Of a DNA stretch of 64,000 nucleotides, positions 45,349 to 58,373 are shown one piece after another. The first letter of the stretch is position 1. Each line of letters starts with the position of its first letter. Below the pieces are notes generated by a model, which had not been told where the DNA came from, did not search any database, and saw nothing but the letters and a program-made list of their open reading frames with translations. The stretch comes from Rugalucina vietnamica (taxonomy: Eukaryota; Mollusca; Bivalvia; Lucinida; Lucinidae). Location of the stretch: contig OZ024872.1 in the NCBI GenBank assembly GCA_964017185.1, forward strand, positions 59,885,817 through 59,949,816, given 5' to 3'. The position numbers were made by a program, and so were the translations under genes.

Positions 45349-48300
45349 TTAATTCCTCATGCCAGCTTGGGCTACCTTCAAACGCTTTAAGAATTTTTCT
45401 TCTTTCTTTTCATTCCAAATATCCAAAAAGAACTGTAAGTAAAAACAAAAATGTTCCTGGTTCATCTGTTGGGCAGATGGTTTAATGCATTGTATGAAGG
45501 CATTAAATTGCTCACAGATCTCCGAGTTAACACTCTCAAAGCCCTGCAGGCGAGATGATTTGTATGCACATGAGCATTTATGACCAAATCCATGGAAAAT
45601 ATCATGAAAGAATCTAACTGATTTATAGTACCCACTTTCTCTATTAAGGCAATATTCTTGTAAATTACAAGCAAAATCATAAAAAATGTCAGCTGGCGGA
45701 GTTTCTAAATGTGTATACAATGATGCAGAAGGATCTTTTCTTCCTTCTACACATGTCATATGGAATCCATAACAATGCCCATGATTGGGACAAAACCATA
45801 GAAATAAAGTTGATGTACCTTTTGCATTTAAATCAGTCTTACTTATATAATCTTTAGTACATTTGTCAAAATCAGCAGGAGTGTCATCAAAATTAGCATT
45901 ATTTTTATTACTTTCTGCATCTATACTAAATTTACGAACATTTCTTAAACGTTCTCCAGTCGGAGAAAAATAGTAAGCTCTTCCAAATTTGGCCGGATTG
46001 TAAGTACCATGCTGTGGATCTGCTTGTTCTGATTCATGAACAACTAAATTTAGTGAGATATCTACAAGGTGTCGAAGAAAGTTAGCAATATCATCCCTCA
46101 GTTTTTGATTTTGACTATACTCTAATGAACATTCAATTAGCTGTCTAAGTTCTTGTGCAAATGTTCTCATTTCGGCCATTGCTGTTTCTACAAAGTCCTC
46201 AGCCTGCTGCTCCTCTGTGCCTGTAAGGTAATTCACTAAACGAACTGTTGTTTCAGCATACTGAGATGGAATTAAACTACTGACAGGTGCAGTTGTAGAT
46301 AACATTTTTAAAACTTCGGCATATGCTTCCTTTTCTTTAACAGGCATATCATTTAGAAAACGTTCAAAAGAAGGTTTTACACTGTCAGGAAGAATCATGA
46401 GAATGTTGTTAGTTTTTCTTTCTTCTTCTTCTGGAGTTAGAAAAGTAGACAATTCATTCAAGGATTTCTTGCTAAGATAAAATAAATGTTCTCTACATTC
46501 AATGTGGTTTAAATTTGGAAGGTCATTAGATATAAAGCATCTGTCAAGTCTTCTGTGAAGAGTTGGTAAAATATTATCAGTGTCTGGTTTGCTAATCTCT
46601 GTAAAGTCTACATGCCTTAATCCTACACCAACTTTAGTTCCATCACAGGCGAGTTGTTTTGGACTATATTTACATACAGGACATGGTCTTCTGAAGTCCT
46701 TCCTCATCGAAGCTGCCCAGCTAAACCACCATTTAATGAAGGTCTTGGAGTCCATAAATTTATGACAATATGGGTCACGCATTTGATAGTGATCAGTTTT
46801 GGTTGCACAGTACGAAGAAAATGTGGTTTGTGAATTTAAAACTAGGTTAACAAATTCCCATCCAATTTCATCTCCTGCAGCAGTTTCATTAGAGAGAACA
46901 TGCAGACTGAGCTTGTCACCTTCGTCCCAAAGCTGTGAACACGGATTATCATAATTAACACAATTTCTTTTATATACCTTACTTTTTATAGGAACACTAT
47001 ATGTATAAATTGTTAAAACTCTTCTAGTATCTGTTATTATACCCTCAGGATTTTCAGAATTAGTCCAACCAGATCCACATGGGCATGTCTTTTCAGGAAT
47101 TTCAGGTATTAAATGGGGACCACTCAAACAACCATCATCAGTTTTTGTCAGTTTATCGTACATCCAAGTGTCTCTTAAACGTATATTCTTTATTAAATTC
47201 TCGTCTCCTTTCATCCTTGGTTTGTGCTTACTTTTACATGGGAAACTCCATAAACCAGTGTCAGGATTAAAGTGATTATCCACTGGACTCTTAGATTCAT
47301 CATCGGAGGGAATGTCTGTTTCTTCGGAATTGTTTAAATTAGTGTAGTTTTTCCAATATTGTGGATTAGCCTTTAGGATGAAGAGGTGGGGACATAAATC
47401 AGCTGTTTCTAGACTTTCAACATGCCTCTTTGAACCTTTCTTGGACTTGCATAAACCATCATGACAGGATACAATGTAGCGCATCTTTCTACTATTATAT
47501 GTTAAACTTAGAAATGAAACCTCTCCATTTTTCAAGACGGAAAATTTGCTTGTTTTACGCGATGATTCAGAGCATGTCAGCTCAACTATTTCTTTGTCTT
47601 TGAAGTCCTCAATAGATTTTTTGATGAATGCTTGTTTTTCAGATAATGTTTCAAAAGGCCCAACATTTAAATTTGGAAGAACAACTTCACGTAGAAATCT
47701 GCAATGCATACATGTTGTGCCTTGACTGTCCAAAGTGAGGTTAGGATCAGCAGTATTATCACAGTCCAGCAAAGTTTTGTAAATTTTACATGAACATTTA
47801 AAGTAATCACCTACTTCAGTAGTATACCATTTAGTTATAACAAAATCAAAGTCTTTGAAATGACCTTCTTCTTCATCAACATCATTCAATACCACAGTTA
47901 ATGATTTATTTTCAACATAATTTTGTATAACCATTTTCCCATTTTCACTAGTGACAATTTTGTTTTTGTAGTTGTCAAATATCGACATTGACGTATCCTT
48001 GAAGATTACCATATCATTTAAATCAACACAACTGGCTTGCTCTGCAATCATGTCAGCGGTTACTTTGACTTGTTTAAAATGAGGTGCAGTTTTCATCTTT
48101 TTATTTTGCTTCTCTGCAGTAGAAATACCCAATTTTTTAAGCGACATAGAAGGCTGAAGGTGATCTTTGAAGGTACTTTCCAAAGTATCTGTTAATTCAT
48201 TAATGTAAAAGTAAATTATCTTATTTCTGAACGAACAGGCTTTCTCATGGTCCGGAAATCTAGTAAGAAACCGCGTCCCTAACTTTCCTCCTGAAGAATT

Positions 48301-48495
48301 AATTTGACTCTCAGAAGCAGATGATAAATTGTTCAGGGCCATACTTTGCTTCAGCAAAGTAAGATCAGGTGGTAATTCAGACTTAATAAAAATTTCAGAA
48401 CTAACATTTCTGACAATGTTTTTCCTTTCTATTGGAAACTGGAACAGTTCATTTCGAAGGTTTTCAAAATAATCAATATTTTCAATGTTACAATT
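45349..48495 (-). CDS. KDZ gene, CxC clusters and KDZ transposase-like domain
   Basis: This frame is open for 1048 codons; positions below count from codon 48357 (1002 residues). Cysteine clusters occur at ~188-219 (CSCKIYKTLLDCD..CMHC), ~298-322 (CHDGLC..CPH), ~410-427 (CPCG) and ~560-571 (CPVC). ACDGTKVGVG (D572) resembles the first acidic motif of the KDZ fold. The 850-990 region has the KDZ core: FYDFAC (D894), FHDIFHGFGHKC (D919, H920-926) and VNSEICEQFNAF (E946/E949), then a histidine-containing helical end. No internal stop. By these motifs the catalytic residues appear present, so activity cannot be excluded. Confidence 0.85.
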   Translation of the reverse strand, partial: NCNIENIDYFENLRNELFQFPIERKNIVRNVSSEIFIKSELPPDLTLLKQSMALNNLSSASESQINSSGGKLGTRFLTRFPDHEKACSFRNKIIYFYINELTDTLESTFKDHLQPSMSLKKLGISTAEKQNKKMKTAPHFKQVKVTADMIAEQASCVDLNDMVIFKDTSMSIFDNYKNKIVTSENGKMVIQNYVENKSLTVVLNDVDEEEGHFKDFDFVITKWYTTEVGDYFKCSCKIYKTLLDCDNTADPNLTLDSQGTTCMHCRFLREVVLPNLNVGPFETLSEKQAFIKKSIEDFKDKEIVELTCSESSRKTSKFSVLKNGEVSFLSLTYNSRKMRYIVSCHDGLCKSKKGSKRHVESLETADLCPHLFILKANPQYWKNYTNLNNSEETDIPSDDESKSPVDNHFNPDTGLWSFPCKSKHKPRMKGDENLIKNIRLRDTWMYDKLTKTDDGCLSGPHLIPEIPEKTCPCGSGWTNSENPEGIITDTRRVLTIYTYSVPIKSKVYKRNCVNYDNPCSQLWDEGDKLSLHVLSNETAAGDEIGWEFVNLVLNSQTTFSSYCATKTDHYQMRDPYCHKFMDSKTFIKWWFSWAASMRKDFRRPCPVCKYSPKQLACDGTKVGVGLRHVDFTEISKPDTDNILPTLHRRLDRCFISNDLPNLNHIECREHLFYLSKKSLNELSTFLTPEEEERKTNNILMILPDSVKPSFERFLNDMPVKEKEAYAEVLKMLSTTAPVSSLIPSQYAETTVRLVNYLTGTEEQQAEDFVETAMAEMRTFAQELRQLIECSLEYSQNQKLRDDIANFLRHLVDISLNLVVHESEQADPQHGTYNPAKFGRAYYFSPTGERLRNVRKFSIDAESNKNNANFDDTPADFDKCTKDYISKTDLNAKGTSTLFLWFCPNHGHCYGFHMTCVEGRKDPSASLYTHLETPPADIFYDFACNLQEYCLNRESGYYKSVRFFHDIFHGFGHKCSCAYKSSRLQGFESVNSEICEQFNAFIQCIKPSAQQMNQEHFCFYLQFFLDIWNEKKEEKFLKRLKVAQAGMRN

Positions 48496-51400
48496 TTAGG
48501 TCTATCTTTTCACCATGCTTTTCTGTGTCCATTTTAACATTAACTTTTGCTTCAACACAGTGAAACACATAATAACATAAACCTGCATTTGTTACTTCTG
48601 ATTCTTTTAATAGGTCTGTTAGTTTATTATCAGCAGTGTTTTTGTTGCGCTTATAAGCCATATCGGCACGATCACGATCTTTTACCACTTTATCCTGCTG
48701 TTTTGCAGCCCGCTTTGCCATTTTTTTTGTACTTAGATTAGTCATACTTTTTTCAATGTCTTCTGGTGTTGCTATCTTGGACATAAAGATGAATTCTTCT
48801 GTGGTATTTAATAATTTTAAAACATCCTTTTTGTGCTCTTCCTCCATAAAACCAGTATAAAAGCCAGATTCCAAGTACCTAATATAATAATGATCACGCT
48901 GATTATATTTGTATTTGAAAACAGTGTAGACAAAAACCCCAGATGTACATTTAGGAATGGAAGCTAATTTAAAAACAGCGTCTTCGAATGCAAAAAAACT
49001 ACACGCAGAACTGCCTCTCTGATGTCCTTCTCGGAGAAATTTTGTTTCTTTTAGGTGTGATAGAACCTCACATTCAAACTTTATACCTCTATCACACTTA
49101 TGTAAATTTGATGATAAAGTCTCAACCCAAGATTCTTTTGTAGTTTCATCTTCTGGAATTTTTCTTTTTAAAACATTTTCAGTGAGTGTATCGGAATTTG
49201 CCTTAAATCTTACAGAAAAATTGTTTGTTAATTCACCTCTATTAGTTGTTATAGTACATGACTGGATTGATGTTTTGTCCAGTACAGGTGACGTAGTATG
49301 TAAATTATCCATCTGATGCGAGACAAGTGACGATTTTTGAGAAAAGGACTCTTGTACAACTTTTGAAGCATTTTCTTCCACAGGTGAACTGGCAAGATAA
49401 ACTGTATGGTCCTCTAAAGTGTATGGTCTCTTTCTAATCAAGAATTTGTCATTGAACTCCTCAAAGTTAAGCTGAAAACGCTGAAAAGATGATGAGGACA
49501 CTCATAAGAACAAGTAAAATGTTTTTGCACTTTCTTTCATGTAAATTATACAGTTCTTGAAGAATTCTACTAAACTATGGCAACACTGTCGGCAGTTTGT
49601 AACTGAAATATCTGCCAGTTTGCAATGAACAAACAATTAAATTAGTCCCAAACATGACAGACATTTCCCTGTGCTATCATTATAATGCTGAGCGCCAATC
49701 AAGGTAACCACTGGTACCATTTTTATCATCTTTAAATGTGAATATTAAAGTTGAAATCTTCTAGTGAAAGGTTCCGGCATCCTCACTTTGCATTAAAGTT
49801 TCAGAAACCTACTGACGGTCATTTGCAACTGTCAACTGGCATACCAGCTACTCATACTGATGATTGGAAAAAATATGTTTGTTTGTTTATATTGAAGTTT
49901 AAGCCATGTCAGGGCAGAGCCATCACCTCCTGTGTATAATATTAACCAGTTCCCTTGAGAGTCAATGTGTCTTCAACAAGGACACAACATGGTGCAGCTA
50001 GTGGGTGAAAAATATGTACATACCAGATGGTTTGGACACCAATTTAGATCTGTGGACAAAGGACTAAACCCTCCATTTGGTAAAGCGCTGATCCACTCTT
50101 TTATGGTCTGGAACTGGTATTCTTCCTAGAAGGAGTAACATACAAGTCAATGTGTATGTATCCTATGTTCAAAAACACAACTTAAGTTTCTTACATAGAT
50201 TTAAAGTAGAACCAATTTGTATACTAGAAGACTTTGAAAATAAGAGCTGTTGCCGGCCAGCATAGCTTTTGACATAAAATCTATTAAAATCTATGACCCA
50301 TGACCTACATATTCAAGAGATATAAACTTATAGAAACTTTTACCAAAAACTTTGACATAAAATTTCTAAGTTTGTGACTCTGGTGGGCAGGAATGGTACA
50401 GCGTAAAACTTTAAAAAAAATATTTTTTTTATTACAGCAGGCAAAGCATCAGCTAGCTCAATTCATATATGTTCAAGCAGCAAACAGTTCTAACAAACAA
50501 GAAAAGCACATGTATCATCTTATCCATCTGCATCCTCGAGAGAAATAGACTTTGAGGGTCACCCTTGTGGGTCATGGTACAGCATAAAACTTCAGACCAA
50601 TATCTACCAACACATCAAACAAAGTATCAACCTTATCCATCAACATGTTCAAGAGATGTAGACTTAAAAAACTTTTAACATTTGAGCAACACCAGGGTGA
50701 GTGCAAAAGCTCTTCTAGTACTTTTGTACTGGCGAGCTAACAATTCATATTCTATGACATTTTTTTCAGGTGAAAATATATTATAAAATTTAATACAAAT
50801 TACTCATGCAGCACATCCCAAATAACTGTGCATCAACTGAGACATCAGTTTAGGCACATTAAACATATTTATGTATTGATTTGTTCTTGGCATTGCCCAA
50901 ATATCAATCTGATGTACACCAATTCAGATGTCTTGCCATTTAAAAAAGCAACAGCATCTGCAACATCTTTGTTGTTGGCATCATTTCACCTTGTGAAGAA
51001 AATACATTGTACCATTTATTCATAAACTGTGTACATGCATGCTTTGTAGTCCAACAAACCCCATCATCAATTTAACACTAAATGTCTATGCCCTTCAGGG
51101 ATTTTTTTCGAGTGTCTCAGGGGCCGAAATAAGGCCCCATTCCCAATGAGATTTAGGTGACTTTTTTCCCAATCTGGAGGAAAAAATTCCCAATCACAGC
51201 TAAAAATAATTTTCAATAGTCCAAATATTTGTGAAATTCAATATCTGCTGTTTGAATTCTGTTTATTTTTGATTATAAGTTATCTTTAAATGATTCTAAA
51301 TGAATAAGCTTCCAAAACTATGTCAACTTGTAAAATATGATCAACTTTTTGTGTTCTTAAAATTTCCCAAATTCAGGGTTAATGTCGCTAATTTTCCCAA

Positions 51401-54400
51401 TCAGAAAGGCCCTAGGGCCCCTTCCCAAAATTTCCAAAAAAATCCCTGCCCTTTTGATTTTTTGTCACCTTAACTATCACACAAGCATTGCAAGCCTGAT
51501 TTTAGATAGCGCAACATCGTTTCAGCTTATTAAAAACGTAATAAATTTGTGTAAATGGTGCTATTACATTTGCGCACATTTTTCAAAAATTTCGTTTGCG
51601 CATAGTTTTCATTTGTGCACAGAAATGTATATCATTTGCGCACAGTTTTAGTGTTACATTTGCGCGCATATTTATACGCATTGTCCTTGTCCAGTTGCTC
51701 AAGGTATACGATAAATAAAATATCAGCACTGTTACCACTGTTTACCAACCTGCAGGTAGAAGAGTTCGAACAAGTTTACACAGTCGCTTAAAAGTCAGTG
51801 TTTAGGTTTAGTTTAACATATTTACATTTTGCGGCACTTTGTTTTGTTCATTTGGAATCCCCACGAGCTATCATTAATTTATACTTTCTCAAGTTTTTAT
51901 TTCACATATTCATCACAGACTTTTCCTTGAGTGCCATCTGTCCATTGAAATGACTAAGAAAGATGTATGCGAATCAGGGCTTGGCTTATCTGTATACAGT
52001 CTTGCTGATGTGCGCAAATGTAACATTTACCTTGATAAATTGTGTGCGCAAATGAATATGTTTACCTGGGAAAATTATGTGCGCAAATGAACCACATTCT
52101 TTGAAAAATGTGCGCAAATGTGCTGCCATCGTGTAAATATCCTCATTACAGCCAAACATTTGGTAGGATTTCAACCTTGAACAATGCCTTGAACAACTGA
52201 CTCCAGACTGCTATCCAAATTTTATCAGTTTTCAATGCATTTATAATAGTTTTATACATGTATATTTATCTTTTGGACACATTGCTGCCAGTATACCACT
52301 TTTTACTCATAAAATACTTTTGCCTCAAATAGTTTTTTGACTAGAAAAGCTTTAACAGTAGCTTAAGTGTGAAGACAGAAAAAAAATAAGAGAAAAAAAT
52401 CCATACCAGATAAATGTGGGATATAACATGTGACTCCAAGTTGCTGTAGTCAGAGTCCATATTCCAGTAGGCACACATTTTCCAGTTACAGGTATTAGAA
52501 GCTTGTATATGTTCAAACATCAGATGCTGACTCAGCTGCCCAATTGATGTGAAGATCATGTTGCAACCTCCCCAGTGGCAAACACACTAGTATATAATTA
52601 TATTAAGCTCTGTTAATGGACAGATTAGCTGAGCCTTACAATGTTTCACAACTTTGATACACAGTACACATAAAAGTGTCTTTGAATAGTACATCTCAAA
52701 ATCTTGACCAATAACATAAAAAAATAAAATACCATACTTATTTTAATAAGCACACAATGCATTTTACTTTTAAAAATAAGTGAACATTGAAGAAACTGGA
52801 ATTGTAAGAGGATCTGACTATAACCCCACTTCTGAGCTTTTTGCCAGGTTGAGAAAAACAAGGCATTGTTAATTTTGATGCACATTAAAAGATTGGTCAG
52901 ATTCTGTCAATTTGTTTGAGTATTGAGCAGACATCAATCAAGGGCCAAAACTCTGTCAAAAGTTTGCAAAAAATAGCTGGCAACAATCCCAAGCTAGATC
53001 TTGTCAATGTTGATGTGCATACAAATTTTGGTCAAGATATCAAGCGGAAACAAAATTCTGACGTCGATCATGGGCCGTAACTCCATCAAAATTTTGTGAA
53101 AAATTACTTGCAACAATCCCAAGCTAGATCTTGTCAATGTTGATGTGCATAGTAATTTTGGTCAGATTCTGTCAATTTGTTCTCAAGATATTGAGAGAAA
53201 ACGAAATTCCGACATCAACTCTGTCAAAATTTGGCGAAAAATGACAGGCTACAATCTCAAGCTAGATCTTGTCAATGTTGATGTGCATACAAAATTTGGT
53301 CCGATTCTGTCAATTCGTTCTCAAGATATTGAGCAGAAACAAAATTATGACGTCAATCAAGGGTCGCAACTCCATCAAAATTTTGCGAAAAATGACAGGC
53401 AACAATCCCAAGCTAGATCTTGTCAATGTTGATGTGCATACAAAGTATGGTCAGATTCTGTCAAATTGTTCTCAAGATATTGAGCAGAAACGAAATTCTG
53501 ACGTCAATCAAGGGCAGCAGCTCTGTCAAAATTTTGCTACTTAAGGATGACGGGCAACAATCCCAAGCTAGGTCTTATCAATATTAATGTGCATTCAAAA
53601 TTTGGTCAGACTCTGTCAATAAGTTCTCAAGATAATGAGCGGAAACAAAAATCCAACGTAAATCAAGAGCTGTAACTCTGTCAAAATTTTGCAAAAAATG
53701 AAGGGTAACGATCCCATGCTAGGTCTTGTCAATGTTGATGTGTATATAAAATCTGGTCCGATTCTATCAAGCCATTCTCAGGATATTGAATGGAAACGAA
53801 ATGTTCACGGTAAGACAGAATGACGGAATTACGGAGGGACAGGGTGAATCCAGTATAGACACACTTTTGCAATGCAGGGCTATAACAAACTGTTTTTTCA
53901 CAACTTTAACACAAGGAAAGTGCTGTTGACTCTAGCATGTCTCATATTCTTATGTTTCATTGCTTTTTATCCTAGTTATAAGGCTAGCTTTTCACCAATT
54001 CCTGAATCTTGTGGTTATCAATTGTCAAATACAGGAATTAATGTGGTGATCGATCAATGTTACAACAGATTATTGTGGGGCAGAGGCAAACAAAACACAT
54101 GATTCAAGAAAATTGCTGCAAATGAAACACAGATCTAAATACATCACATGAAACTATACATACCTGCATGGGCCCTGGATTCTGTTCCACATCACCAGAC
54201 AGGAGCAGCTTAAGTCTGGATATGTCTACAGACATTTCTACTAGTAGCTCTTCTAATACATGGAAAAACCCATCGAGACCAAGCAGCCATGTGAGCGCCA
54301 TAATCTGTGCAACAGAATTCCATTCTTTGACATCAAGGCCAGCCACTGTTCCTGTTAAAGTACAGTTTACAAACCACACTTAATAAAAGACATTCACTAG

Positions 54401-57400
54401 TATGCTAAGTTAACGTCGGCATTGTGTTAGTATATTTCATAACTTCAAGCATTGATCTCAAACTAAGATTATTATTTATCTATTTCTCACAGCCAGGATG
54501 GTCTGGGCTGATCTACTGCATTTGTATGGCCATGTTGAAATATCAAACCAGAAAAAATAAAAATAATTTAACAAAATCTGTCCAAAAAATGGTTTAGTAT
54601 ATAACTTTGCTTAGGACTAAAATGTGCAGTTAAAGAGATGACAGTTTAAAACTTACCACATACAGAGGGATACAGATGCTGCTGTTCTAGATATCTCTTA
54701 CTATAACCACTTCTGTGTGCTGGTTCTGGCTGCTCTATTGGACCCTTAGAATCTGAACTTTTTGTAGTCTAATCGCAAAAGATAAACATCACATGAAAAC
54801 AACCAAGCAGGAAACAAGAAAAAGATATCATTTACTATTGTAAATCTCAACATTCAGGTTTTCAAAGGGCAATAACTTCATTTCTTGCACACCAGACAGA
54901 AATTGCCACACTTTTTGCCTGGGTGATAAAATTGCATCTCACACAGGCGTTCTCACCCAGGCCAAAAAAAATACGCAAAACCTTGAAATAAACCAGATTT
55001 TGGGGGTTGTTGTGCAAGAAAAAGAATCTAATATGGTGTTCTGTTCTAGATGGAAGTTTCCAACCCTCGGGATGACCGTGCTGAGCGGAACCTCGGCGGA
55101 GCCTCGGTTCCGCTCAGCCCGGTCATCCCTTGGGTTGGAAACTTCCATCTAGAACAGAACCCCATATAAGATTCTTATATTTCATTATTAAATCTATCAT
55201 TCACTACAAACTCACCAAATTTCATGAGCCTTCATAAAAAGTTTTGGGAACATCTCAATGTGTAAAATTCATTCAGACTCTGAACCTTTAAAAGAGTTTA
55301 TTTTCTACAAGGGTAGAAAATTCAGATGAATAAAAATAAAGGCAGATAAAGAATACATATATGAGCCGCCTCATGGGAAAACCAACAATTTACATATGCA
55401 AAAACAAAGGCGCAGATCAGCTTCGCGGTAACCGCGAAGCTGATCAGCGCCTTTGTTTTCGCTACACGGATAGTACATTCCCTCTACTTCCTAAACACGA
55501 AATTACATGCTTCTAGCAGTCTTTTGTTACTATGCAGGCCGTTTTGTGTCAGACCTGTTCAAAAACCACATTGCTGGTTTTCCCATGAGGCGGCTCATAT
55601 GTATGAACAGACCAAAATCAATATGCTAAAACACTATCTCAGAGTTGGGTGCATAAAAATAAAACCTTACATTTCTCATCCTGACAGTTGTCTTCTTGAC
55701 ATTGTTGTCTTTCATATGTGACTCATGAGGTCGGTGGATCTTCAGAAAGTGGTTCAACATTTTCATCTCATCCCCAAAGTTTTCGTCACACACTGGACAC
55801 TAAAACAATACAGTACCAGCCCATATACAGATAATTTAATGAACATGTTTTGTCATACACACCAAGGCACTGACTCACCTGTAAAACATAGTGGTGCAGA
55901 GTTAGCATTGTCTTAAAATCTTAACTGTTTGTCAAATCAGTACTGACTAAAATCAGCCAGCTCACATCATTATTTCAAACTTTCAAAATCTTCACAATTC
56001 ACAATAAAAGCACTGTAGGCATGCAAATGCACCAATTATCTTGATGACATTCTTTAGATAATCGGCATAACAAAATTCAGGAAACAATATCATCTATAAC
56101 CCAATTCATTTTGTAGGGACACACTTCTTCACATTATATCTTGCCTTTACACATACTAGAAATTTCTGAAAGTTAAATGGGGTTGTCTTTTTTAAACCAT
56201 AGAACTAACAAACACGTACAAAAAATATATCAAATCACCTTTCAGTTGACAAAAAAGAAGGAAAGTCTTTCTTTCTTTTTGTTTTAACACAAGTTAAAGG
56301 CAATAACTTTTTTTCCAAAAATTCTCAAGAAATGAAATAGTATTTTTCAGGCCTAGATCTAATCAATGTGTTTGAAGATTCAATTTGATCTTATTCCATC
56401 CATTTGCTCAAAACATATGGAGTAAAACAATTTTTTAACATTAACCAAGGGCCATAACTCTGTAGTTAATTGGTGAAATTTACCAATCTGCTCGATTATG
56501 GCAATCCCATAATGCCTCTCTCTGTATATAAACTCTTATGCAAAGTTGAAAACGTCCAAGATCAAAAGCAGAAATATTGCTACAGTGTCACCAGTGTTAT
56601 TTTCATCTGCATTACTACAGGCGTTTTAATATTATACATACATGACTGTCATGATGCCTTTTGACTTTGCTGGAAACCACTTTAGTCTTTAAATTACTGT
56701 TGGAAGATGCTGTTGGCTGTTTCTCAACTCTGCTCTGTAAAAGACAAATGACACTTGGTCTTAGCTAAAGGCCTGAAACTATATAAATGATAAAACTACT
56801 TTTTAGTGATTCTTATTAAATATTTCAGAATATTTGTGTGGATTGTTTGATTTTAAGTTCCAAAGAATTTTAATTTTTTAATTTTTAGTAGTAGTTTATG
56901 AAAGCAATTTTGGTCATTATTTCATAAATCGATTGATCATTTCGCAGCTATTTGGGACAGTTTTAATTATAATGTTATATATCAAAACAACAACGCTGCG
57001 GAGGTCAATATCGTACCTGCATCAGACAAAATAACTAATCAGTGAAACATAGGTCGGGGGCACCAGGCCAAGGTGTATTCTGAAAGGGTATGTCAAGGAC
57101 AATTACTATGCACAGCTTCACATTCGCAGCAACCTTAGGTGCAGAGAAAACCAAACTTTGTCGTAAAAATTAACAAAGTTGATGTACTGTAAAATATAGG
57201 TTAAGGGCATTGGGTCAAGGTACATGTCAAGGACAATTACTATGCAAGGTTTCACAATCACAGCTTTCACTGATGCAGAGAAAATCAAACTTTGACGTAA
57301 AATTGAACAAAGTCAATGGACCGTGAAATATAAGACAAGAGCACCCGGTCAAGGTGCATGCTTGAAGGGTATGTCAAGGACAATTAATATACAAGGTTTC

Positions 57401-58373
57401 ATACTCACAGCTATCACTGATGCAGAGTAAATCAAATTCCACGTAAAATTGAACAAAGTCAATGGACCGTGAAATATAGGTCAAGGGCACCAAGTCAAGG
57501 GGCATGCTTGAAGGGTAGGTCAAGGACAATTACTATGCAAGGTATCACACTCACAGCTATCACTGATGCAGAGAAAACCATACTTCGACTTAAAATTGAA
57601 CAAAGTCAGTGGACTGTGAAATATAGGTCAAAGGCACTGGGTCAAGATGTGTGCTTGAAGACGTCAAGGACAATTACTATGCAAGGTTTCTTACTCACAG
57701 CTATCACTGATGCAGCGAAAACCAAACTTCAACGCAAACAGAAAACTTTGACATAAAAATTAATAAAGTCAATGGCTTGAGAAATATAGGTCAAGAGCAC
57801 CAGGTCAATGTGCGTGCTTGAAAGGTATGTCAAGGACAATTACTATGCAAGGTTTAACACTCACAGCTATCACTAATGTAGGGGAAACCAAACTTTGACC
57901 TAAATGTTGACGGAAGGACGAAGGGACAAACAGAAATTTTGACTCCTATATCGCACCCTGCTATAAGCAGGTGCGATAATAATCATACATTTACATATAC
58001 CATAGTCATTCTATTTAGCACACATGTCCCAATAAGCAATCACTCATGTCTCGAGATCCAAAATTTCTAAGTGGTATATACTCAGTCTTAAATGGCCCAA
58101 AATATTTGGCATTTACGTAAAATACAATTGTACTTAAATAGCATTACCAACAAATTTTGACTTCAATCAATAGACTGCAGCAGCAGACTATTTAAAAAAG
58201 TATTCGAAGACTTTACGACACAACTTTGATAATCTCAAGAAACAAACAGTGTGCTACATGTATATAGAACAAATAGGAAACTTACTTTGTAGATGCAGGA
58301 AATATTCTTGTGTGGAACAAGAACAGCAACCTCTTCCTCGATTATGGCGATTTGCACCACTGGCTTTTTTCCA
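45349..58373 (-). CDS. Multi-exon zinc-finger / 2A / KDZ-transposase-like gene (5' incomplete)
   Basis: Eight or nine coding exons were predicted from GT-AG sites and matching phases: 58286-58373, 56642-56734, 55671-55799, 54657-54768, 54164-54351, 52407-52586, 50024-50125 and 45349-49480, the last containing one frame change near 48490. The encoded order is a linker, a C2H2 finger, a 2A-like sequence, two GLI-type C-x4-C fingers, CxC cysteine clusters and a KDZ transposase-like domain. KDZ proteins are DDE transposases of Kyakuja, Dileera and Zisupton elements; CxC clusters accompany them. I associate the same combination with mollusc proteins named HMGXB3-like, but I see no HMG box here. 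Multi-exon structure argues for a host-type gene, though intron-bearing KDZ transposons exist. Entry into the first listed exon is in phase 2, so more exons lie upstream. Confidence 0.82.
48488..49480 (-). CDS. KDZ gene, first part of the large exon
   Basis: After the acceptor CATCATCTTTTCAG the frame reads RFQLNFEEFNDKFLIRKRPY and stays open for 330 codons to a TAA at 48488-48490. No domain is recognised; a middle segment (FAFEDAVFKLASIPKCTSGV, FKYKYNQRDHYYIRYLESGF) looks globular, followed by a Lys/Arg-rich helical stretch (KKMAKRAAKQQDKVVKDRDR). An upstream GTG at 49501 lies just after a stop and inside the intron, so it is not taken as a start. The frame ends where the next one opens (48495), so either a short intron, a +1 shift or a one-base error joins them. 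Confidence 0.75.
   Translation of the reverse strand, partial: RFQLNFEEFNDKFLIRKRPYTLEDHTVYLASSPVEENASKVVQESFSQKSSLVSHQMDNLHTTSPVLDKTSIQSCTITTNRGELTNNFSVRFKANSDTLTENVLKRKIPEDETTKESWVETLSSNLHKCDRGIKFECEVLSHLKETKFLREGHQRGSSACSFFAFEDAVFKLASIPKCTSGVFVYTVFKYKYNQRDHYYIRYLESGFYTGFMEEEHKKDVLKLLNTTEEFIFMSKIATPEDIEKSMTNLSTKKMAKRAAKQQDKVVKDRDRADMAYKRNKNTADNKLTDLLKESEVTNAGLCYYVFHCVEAKVNVKMDTEKHGEKIDLKL
49683..49745 (-). mobile_element. V-SINE central-domain fragment
   Basis: Inverted, it reads AAAGATGATAAAAATGGTAC then CAGTGGTTACCTTGATTGGC and GCTCAGC, matching 3885-3935 of the V-type SINE. Head and tail are missing. It lies in an intron of the KDZ gene. Confidence 0.7.
50024..50125 (-). CDS. KDZ gene, short linker exon
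   Basis: Acceptor GTTACTCCTTCTAG and donor CTG/GTATGT, 34 codons, phase 0 on both sides: EEYQFQTIKEWISALPNGGF then SPLSTDLNWCPNHL. It continues in frame into the exon that starts at 49480. Confidence 0.68.
50243..50745 (-). mobile_element. Hairpin-ended repeat family III, minus-strand copy
   Basis: At 50705-50740 the inverted family hairpin appears (CTAGTACTTTTGTACTGGCG then AGCT), and at 50243 the inverted end AAGAGCTGTTGCCGGCCAGC. Two or three units with TAGACTTAAAAAACTTTTAACA and GGGTCATGGTACAGCATAAA lie between. It is shorter and more diverged than the 18.6 kb copy. Intronic. Confidence 0.72.
51096..51448. mobile_element. CAGGGATTTTTTT-ended MITE
   Basis: The ends CAGGGATTTTTTTCGA and TTCCAAAAAAATCCCTG mirror each other for about 13 bases. 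GCCCTT lies next to both ends, a partial duplication. Inside are several TTCCCAAT words on one strand. The termini fit a hAT-like MITE but the duplication is not clean. Intronic. Confidence 0.6.
51557..52130. mobile_element. Foldback MITE with sub-repeated TIRs and 8-bp duplication
   Basis: GTGTAAAT flanks the element (51549-51556 and 52131-52138). Each inverted end contains four copies of the word CATTTGCGCACA at ~30-40-bp steps: at 51568, 51590, 51614 and 51640-51668 on the left, and inverted at 52007, 52041, 52079 and 52108 on the right. The outermost parts pair as GGTGCTATTACATTTGCGCA and GATGGCAGCACATTTGCGCA. The 340-bp centre has no open frame. TIRs built of sub-repeats are the hallmark of Foldback/Galileo-type elements; an 8-bp duplication fits P or hAT superfamilies. 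Confidence 0.87.
52407..52586 (-). CDS. KDZ gene, exon with two GLI-type zinc fingers
   Basis: Acceptor ATAATTATATACTAG and donor CTG/GTATGG, 60 codons, phase 0. Finger one: CHWGGCNMIFTSIGQLSQHL then MFEH (C-x4-C-x12-H-x4-H). Finger two: CNWKMCAYWNMDSDYSNLES then HVISH (C-x4-C-x14-H-x3-H). The CxWxxC pattern is typical of GLI/ZIC-like and ARID2-like fingers. Directly after the 2A proline the joined product reads PMQCVCHWGGC. Confidence 0.75.
52910..53860 (+). repeat. ~123-147-bp tandem array in a KDZ-gene intron
   Basis: Units contain CAAGCTAGATCTTGTCAATG then TTGATGTGCAT, GGTCAGATTCTGTCAA and CAAGATATTGAGCGGAAACA. They recur at about 52991, 53114, 53261, 53408, 53565 and 53715. The last units are more diverged and end in GACGGAATTACGGAGGGACA, a tail type also seen at the end of the 57 kb array. 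Both arrays could be bodies of hairpin-ended elements. Confidence 0.85.
54164..54351 (-). CDS. KDZ gene, exon carrying a 2A-like sequence
   Basis: Acceptor CTGTACTTTAACAG and donor CAG/GTATGT bound 188 bases that enter in phase 1 and leave in phase 0. The product begins TVAGLDVKEWNSVAQIMALT, continues through a leucine-rich stretch (WLLGLDGFFHVLEELLVEMS) and closes SRLKLLLSGDVEQNPGP then MQ. The 2A-like motif lies five codons or fewer from the exon end. Neighbouring exons join in frame on both sides, so the motif is inside the open frame and not in a stray LINE copy. Confidence 0.78.
54170..54211 (-). other. 2A-like ribosome-skipping sequence LKLLLSGDVEQNPGP
   Basis: The core D-V-E-Q-N-P-G-P fits the D(V/I)ExNPGP consensus, and the upstream leucine-rich SRLKLLLSG resembles the functional upstream part of known 2A sequences (for instance LLSGDVExNPGP forms in picornaviruses, CR1-like LINEs and sea-urchin NLR genes). 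In tested 2A sequences the ribosome fails to form the Gly-Pro bond, releasing an upstream chain and continuing from the proline. Here that would separate the N-terminal C2H2 portion from the GLI-finger/KDZ portion. Skipping activity is inferred from the motif only. Confidence 0.82.
54657..54768 (-). CDS. KDZ gene, linker exon before 2A
   Basis: Acceptor TTTGCGATTAG and donor TGTG/GTAAGT, encoding TTKSSDSKGPIEQPEPAHRS and GYSKRYLEQQHLYPSVC with one base left over. That base plus the first two of the next exon makes a glycine codon, so the phases agree. Confidence 0.65.
54885..55185. mobile_element. Palindrome-bearing repeat family IV, copy 2
   Basis: Starts TTCTTGCACACCAGACAGA and ends ATAAGATTCTTATATTT like the 14.4 kb copy. 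The near-perfect inverted repeat has 61-bp arms, 55032-55092 and 55106-55166, with about four differences, around CTCGGCGGAGCCTCG. Arm sequence (GTTCTAGATGGAAGTTTCCA) is unlike copy 1. Also inside is a TTTGCCTGGGTGA / TCACCCAGGCCAAA pair at about 54915-54967. Intronic. Confidence 0.75.
55360..55598. mobile_element. MITE with TATGAGCCGCCTCATGGGAA termini and central palindrome
   Basis: TATGAGCCGCCTCATGGGAA plus AACCA at 55360 is mirrored at 55574-55598, giving perfect 25-bp ends; TA next to each end may be the target duplication. The centre holds a 59-bp palindrome, 29-bp arms 55401-55429 and 55431-55459 with one difference (AAAACAAAGGCGCAGATCAG...). I recall ends of this kind as widespread in bivalve genomes. 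It sits between two KDZ exons. Confidence 0.82.
55671..55799 (-). CDS. KDZ gene, C2H2 zinc-finger exon
   Basis: Acceptor GTATTGTTTTAG and donor AAT/GTAAGG, 43 codons, phase 0. It encodes CPVCDENFGDEMKMLNHFLK followed by IHRPHESH, a C-x2-C-x12-H-x4-H finger, then a Lys/Arg-rich tail (KDNNVKKTTVRMRN). The exon begins exactly at the first cysteine. Likely DNA, RNA or protein binding. Confidence 0.75.
56642..56734 (-). CDS. KDZ gene, basic linker exon
   Basis: Acceptor GTCTTTTACAG and donor CAT/GTATGT, 31 codons in phase 0 at both ends: SRVEKQPTASSNSNLKTKVV then SSKVKRHHDSH. Ser/Lys-rich, probably flexible and possibly nuclear-localising. No domain. Confidence 0.62.
57040..57978 (+). repeat. ~145-bp tandem array ending in a hairpin
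   Basis: Six units carry AAATATAGGTCAAGGGCACC, TGTCAAGGACAATTACTATG, TTTCACACTCACAGCTATCA and TGATGCAGAGAAAACCAAAC. The array closes with GACGGAAGGACGAAGGGACA and the perfect stem TCGCACCCTGC/GCAGGTGCGA (57950-57976). As in families I-III, a tandem body is joined to a terminal hairpin, so this is probably a non-autonomous element and not a free satellite. The second end, near 57040, was not found. Intronic. Confidence 0.8.
58286..58373 (-). CDS. KDZ gene, first visible exon
   Basis: Acceptor TTAATTGTATTGCAG and donor TACAAA/GTAAGT bound 88 bases. After one carried base it encodes GKKPVVQIAIIEEEVAVLVP then HKNISCIYK, and it ends in phase 0. It needs an upstream exon, which I could not identify in 58.4-64 kb. 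The competing frames of this stretch are less protein-like. Confidence 0.6.

Follow-up and report, generated by a model that had tools for sequence, protein, structure and literature searches.

Does a gene of the lucinid clam Rugalucina vietnamica carry a working 2A (StopGo) signal, at which one messenger RNA (mRNA) would give two proteins, and what kind of gene is it? The question is raised by a 64,000-nucleotide stretch of contig OZ024872.1 (positions 59,885,817 to 59,949,816), here called the window, for which an earlier note had proposed such a signal inside a zinc-finger/KDZ gene of host type. We consider it quite likely that the exon concerned encodes a working 2A/StopGo signal, in a KDZ-superfamily (class II) transposon lineage of bivalves. 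This is the best explanation because the 2A letters were kept over strong synonymous change, occupy one position in four named genera of clams, lie in the best-conserved exon and follow a leader of an active class.

The 2A exon and its gene

The minus-strand exon 54351-54164 (E3 in Table 1) comprises 62 full codons, the final part of which reads SRLKLLLSGDVEQNPGPMQ, and encodes LKLLLSGDVEQNPGP followed by MQ. With an acceptor TAACAG and a donor GTATGT it fits the adjacent exons in both phases; sequence, frame, borders and donor are as the earlier note had given them. The 2A motif in this exon is real. Its D(V/I)ExNPGP core is in frame, through mapped splice sites, between two coding parts, a C2H2 part and a C2H2-KDZ part, which is the position by which a 2A/StopGo signal is judged and which the earlier note had described. 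The leader KLLLSG before DVEQNPGP belongs, by eye and without a score, to the L-rich class ending in (A/S/C)G. According to section 10 of PMC12846837, 'LLLLSG-like' leaders are a main class ahead of viral 2A cores, L-rich motifs finish in (A/S/C)G before the D, and an example of motif 6 was active in reticulocyte lysate.

The exons were mapped with a paralogue on contig C11 and the homologous protein P0002 as guides. Seven introns with GT/AG ends and matching phases interrupt the chain from 58373 to 48491. Exon A opens with the last base of a codon, and at least one further exon must therefore lie upstream, although none was found upstream of exon A. From the start of exon A to NPG there are 200 residues with one C2H2 pattern among them, and two such patterns follow the 2A (both by regular expression). 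P0002 has the same exon chain as a single frame of 1675 amino acids on a 6,366-base contig (source 'lgn'). In the window the gene spreads seven introns across 13 kb, so that an uninterrupted frame of this kind would be expected in an mRNA (or a retrocopy); the contig presumably stems from an RNA assembly. From exon A through E6 to the KDZ open reading frame (ORF), identity between P0002 and the window is 52, 52, 60, 46, 90, 70, 85, 70 and 83%. Thus the 2A exon, identical at 57 of 63 positions, is the best conserved of all, whereas the four exons ahead of it reach 46-60%.

Three further copies of the exon are present in the genome (C4:66.9M, C2:17.6M and C11:14.8M; contig and position). They have 64% amino acid identity to that of the window and all keep the 2A. 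In long pieces (those below 94% or shorter than 150 bases were omitted) the three loci are about 96-99% alike; because C4 and C2 are near-identical to C11, they represent one line and not independent support. C4:66.9M and C2:17.6M were also rejected as further transposon copies, being nearly identical to the C11 locus with the identity stopping inside the KDZ frame. At C11 a KDZ gene comes after the exon; two parts of it have 47% and 66% identity, and from E1 to KDZ its exons follow the same order. Over the 15-codon 2A block, window and C11 differ by nine synonymous and no non-synonymous changes (32.8 non-synonymous sites), and in the rest of the exon the proportions of non-synonymous (pN) and synonymous (pS) differences are 0.321 and 0.716. 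For the KDZ parts and E6, pN/pS is 0.29, 0.48 and 0.51, with synonymous sites nearly saturated. Exact duplication alone was rejected, since about 30% of the exon bases are different in the C11 and C2 copies, which nevertheless retain the 2A.

The earlier note held that the core is rarely met by chance. This applies to the window, where the D(V/I)ExNPGP pattern occurs once in the DNA and in none of 100 dinucleotide shuffles, but DVExNPGP has 109 matches in the whole genome (1.09 Gb; reversed control, 0). The motif is therefore not rare in this genome; the unusual thing is the surrounding gene. Eight of the loci examined (L001-L008) are open frames of 127-602 amino acids. Judged from translations read by eye, without a profile search, two of them (L001-L002) look like coiled-coil frames and six (L003-L008) resemble endonuclease frames of long interspersed nuclear elements (LINEs), as do L032-L034. 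The last three have a D-I-E type 2A at the start of the LINE-like frame; in L032 and L034 a hydrophobic L-rich leader stands right behind a Met, like N-terminal 2A signals. Another GDVEQNPGP was seen in a minus-strand ORF of 614 amino acids (L015, G000:C15:26173416-26183400). Downstream of the 2A this frame has a match, below the cut-off, to a YDR124W-like helical bundle domain (1.2e-4), and this is possibly a further non-LINE 2A gene.

Relatives in other bivalves

Two protein searches gave a set of 81 homologues. The tree, drawn with midpoint rooting, has 88 rows: 80 of the 81 proteins, the window, C11 and six sequences from its own genome. The window is found within a group of 20 rows (support 100/100) made up of 18 proteins, the window and C11. 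P0029 was kept outside the tree for its short match; over residues 246-1384 it shares 61% identity with the window protein, and its first residue falls downstream of the 2A. By this identity it belongs to the clade, which therefore holds 19 proteins, with 62 outside. Named members are Mytilus coruscus, Mya arenaria, Argopecten irradians, Mercenaria mercenaria, Dreissena polymorpha and Mactra antiquata.

NPGP stands at the 2A place in seven of the 19 clade proteins: P0002, P0011 (Mercenaria), P0012 (Dreissena), P0005, P0013 and P0016 (all Mya; the latter two nearly the same) and P0017 (Mactra). The sequence before NPGP is KLLLSG-DVEQ in the window, C11 and P0002, KLLLSG-DVEL in P0011, LLILSN-DVEL in P0012, KLLLSN-DVEQ in P0013 and P0016, and RLLLAN-DVEQ in P0005 and P0017. 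In the other 12 the aligned part begins at window residue 176 or beyond, downstream of NPGP (138-141); the longest unaligned stretches before that start, in P0015 (85 residues), P0008 (50) and P0004 (17), have no NPGP. Hence all seven clade proteins whose models reach the 2A place carry it, the opposite of the absence in orthologues that the earlier note had named as counter-evidence. NPGP was found in none of the 62 homologues outside the bivalve KDZ clade. A search with region 120-330 of P0002 returned P0002 only. The public gene model P0001 begins at E6, without the 2A and all earlier exons; annotation can therefore cut this gene.

With the 2A as a label, the tree needs eight changes, and 107 of 500 shuffles were as low. 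This test is not informative because cut-off models were counted as lacking the 2A. A single old origin is likely since both the branch of the window and the clam branch contain carriers; horizontal transfer is a possible alternative.

The two predicted products

The 1048-residue ORF of the window contains KDZ (PF18758; 3.2e-9, 37.2 bits, cut-off 26.6) and CxC4 (2.2e-6, 28 bits, cut-off 26.9) as its only Pfam families, and E6 has none. D618, D940 and E995 are invariant across 27 rows, and each of the top 20 structural rows is a DDE transposase or an integrase. The KDZ protein has a DDE-like fold with a DDE/RNase H catalytic core. Foldseek's own list contained no Protein Data Bank (PDB) match at E <= 0.001, and sequence searches of the PDB yielded no usable match to the KDZ part or to the SGNH part described below. 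In place of the host-type gene of the earlier note we thus find a gene of transposon type, a member of a transposase family (KDZ, CxC4, DDE-like fold) among partial and decayed relatives. No terminal repeats were found for it: of seven inverted-repeat pairs of at least 25 bases in 40000-64000, none frames the gene, and its ends may lie outside. For a relative at C11:21.04M, no 5' exons were seen within 7.5 kb upstream (one match, E 0.49). Another KDZ family with 41% identity to that of the window is present at C1:70.13M, C9:27.29M, C11:2.59M and C33:42590 (L021-L024), in four nearly identical copies spread over different contigs, which points to recent copying; no DVExNPGP lies near the first three among the matches listed.

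Upstream of the 2A the earlier note had predicted a small C2H2 protein. The C2H2 pattern is there, but in some clams an SGNH/GDSL-like domain precedes it. Residues 1-211 of P0017 match Lipase_GDSL_2 (E 3e-5; 25 bits, less than the cut-off of 32.9), although the whole of P0017 gave no family at E 0.1; the match of P0011 is at 0.018, and P0016 has letters similar to the SGNH part by eye. No SGNH exon was found in the window or 8 kb beyond. Either lineages have different upstream partners or the exons for this part are located further away.

According to the mechanism that we propose, one spliced mRNA would be translated, and between NPG and P the ribosome would free the upstream chain and then continue. 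The first product would be a C2H2-finger protein, here of at least 200 amino acids, that ends in NPG and in some clams includes the SGNH/GDSL-like domain. The second, in P0002 about 1.48 thousand residues long, would be the transposase, with a proline at its start and C2H2 fingers of its own a few residues further on. Where E4 is present, the predicted break a few residues ahead of these fingers would set the N terminus of the transposase; P0005 and P0017 have no C2H2 fingers after the 2A. Presumably both products act in transposition, the first as a helper.

Table 1. Coordinates of the 2A block, the mapped exons and the KDZ reading frame in the window
Feature	Positions	Strand	Acceptor / donor	Remarks
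2A block LKLLLSGDVEQNPGP	54170..54214	-		predicted break between G and last P
Exon A (IEEEVAVLVPHKNISCIYK...)	58286..58373	-	GCAG / GTAAGT	matches P0002 residues 1-19
Exon B	56642..56734	-	ACAG / GTATGT	matches P0002
Exon E1	55671..55799	-	TTAG / GTAAGG	C2H2 finger pattern; conserved in C11 and P0002
Exon E2	54657..54768	-	TTAG / GTAAGT	conserved in C11 and P0002
Exon E3	54164..54351	-	ACAG / GTATGT	bears the 2A
Exon E4	52407..52586	-	CTAG / GTATGG	two C2H2 finger patterns at predicted start of transposase product
Exon E5	50024..50125	-	CTAG / GTATGT	
Exon E6	48491..49480	-		N-terminal part of KDZ protein; ends at frameshift relative to next ORF
1048-residue ORF	45349..48495	-		CxC4 (residues 468-592), KDZ transposase (835-1028)

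Elsewhere in the window, positions 358-1293 are a tandem repeat with several open frames on each strand (FGHSSV..., AEPVNRT...).

Competing explanations and known 2A systems

Several points weigh against a working signal in this lineage. A frameshift separates E6 from the 1048-residue ORF in the window assembly, the C11 copy has a frameshift of its own, and in five of the seven relatives N takes the place of the preferred G before the core. Moreover, we infer the skipping itself from sequence.

It is possible, though we doubt it, that the 2A worked in an ancestral transposon and that the window copy is a decaying pseudogene with no useful product today. The two frameshifts would fit such a relic, as would the several other relatives in the same genome that are fragments with stops and the two further exon copies, C4 and C2, in loci whose identity with C11 ends inside the KDZ frame. 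However, the exon chain of the window is open apart from its frameshift, and P0001, a 99% identical model on a 2.5-Mb contig of a different assembly, reads through that place; intact copies therefore exist, and the break in the window may be allelic or due to misassembly.

We regard as unlikely that the host took over the KDZ transposase together with its 2A and now makes two regulatory proteins from it. Such a domestication would agree with the low copy number (among the relatives found in this genome, only the window and C11:14.8M were seen with both the 2A exon and the KDZ part) and with the close relative in the species of P0002, whose 2A exon is 90% identical. The frameshifts and the catalytic-type residues that were kept argue against it, and the public clusters of P0012 and P0009, with 35 and 30 member sequences at 90% identity in which database duplicates may be counted, fit multi-copy elements.

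Chance as the origin of the motif was rejected on the reversed control, the shuffles and the composition of all 81 proteins, from which 0.0002 NPGP are expected. That the letters were kept for some other reason, with no skipping, is very improbable: the relatives with N before the core and the way in which skipping was deduced leave some room for it, but seven carriers face the expected 0.0002, and the block has no non-synonymous change while the rest of the exon changed. Least credible of all is that the exon comes from a LINE with a 2A, part of which was recently spliced into the gene, since, common as LINE-like frames with a 2A are in this genome, matches of the exon beyond the four gene copies have E 0.27 or worse and span query residues 18-61 at longest, otherwise beginning at 35 or 37, and P0011 of Mercenaria aligns within this exon upstream of the 2A at 48% identity; an origin from a LINE is thereby weakened, but may still lie in the distant past.

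How does a working 2A ahead of a KDZ transposase compare with known systems? Odon et al. 2013 reportedly described 2A-bearing APE-type non-long-terminal-repeat (non-LTR) retrotransposons, as cited in PMC12846837, PMC11512398 and PMC4981915. These have the same 2A core in a mobile element, and some LINE-like frames of this genome have a very similar L-rich leader. Here, in contrast, a KDZ DNA transposase with a DDE-like fold follows the 2A and the gene has introns; no endonuclease or reverse transcriptase was found after the 2A by Pfam. Sea-urchin NLR genes likewise have a 2A in a metazoan nuclear gene, but in the passages of PMC4981915 at hand it is the N-terminal signal sequence of an immune receptor, whereas the present 2A stands between two C2H2 parts, with at least 200 residues before it, and neither NACHT nor leucine-rich repeats follow it (Pfam). 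With other Kyakuja-Dileera-Zisupton (KDZ) transposases (PF18758) the protein has the KDZ domain, the CxC4 cluster and the DDE-like fold in common, but here C2H2 patterns and a 2A precede the transposase.

Passages of PMC11512398 list virus families, non-LTR retrotransposons and NLRs as bearers of 2A; for non-viral 2A these and the passages of PMC4981915 name non-LTR retrotransposons and NLR genes, and a part of PMC12846837 calls StopGo rare in cellular genes. A few terms gave no matches in PMC12730594 and PMC10294476, and among the literature titles and abstract openings listed we found no report of a 2A in a KDZ or other DNA transposon. As to the novelty of a 2A in a KDZ transposon lineage, priority is unsettled. 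Cellular proteomes are said to have been scanned for 2A by Rao et al. 2025 (Cell Rep. 44, 115822), who may list these proteins.

It is tempting to speculate further, with chances that we see as even, that a whole class II lineage obtains its transposase from the second part of a polyprotein split by a 2A, next to a co-translated C2H2 partner (SGNH-like in some clams), and has kept this arrangement since before the two sampled bivalve branches parted. How efficiently the ribosome skips would then determine the proportions of partner, fusion and free transposase, and through them control jumping. If true, an element of the cut-and-paste type employs the polyprotein strategy of viruses, and natural variants, with G or N before the core, are available for study. 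The 2A would define the true N terminus of the transposase and reveal a partner protein that is hidden in gene models, where it is fused or cut off.
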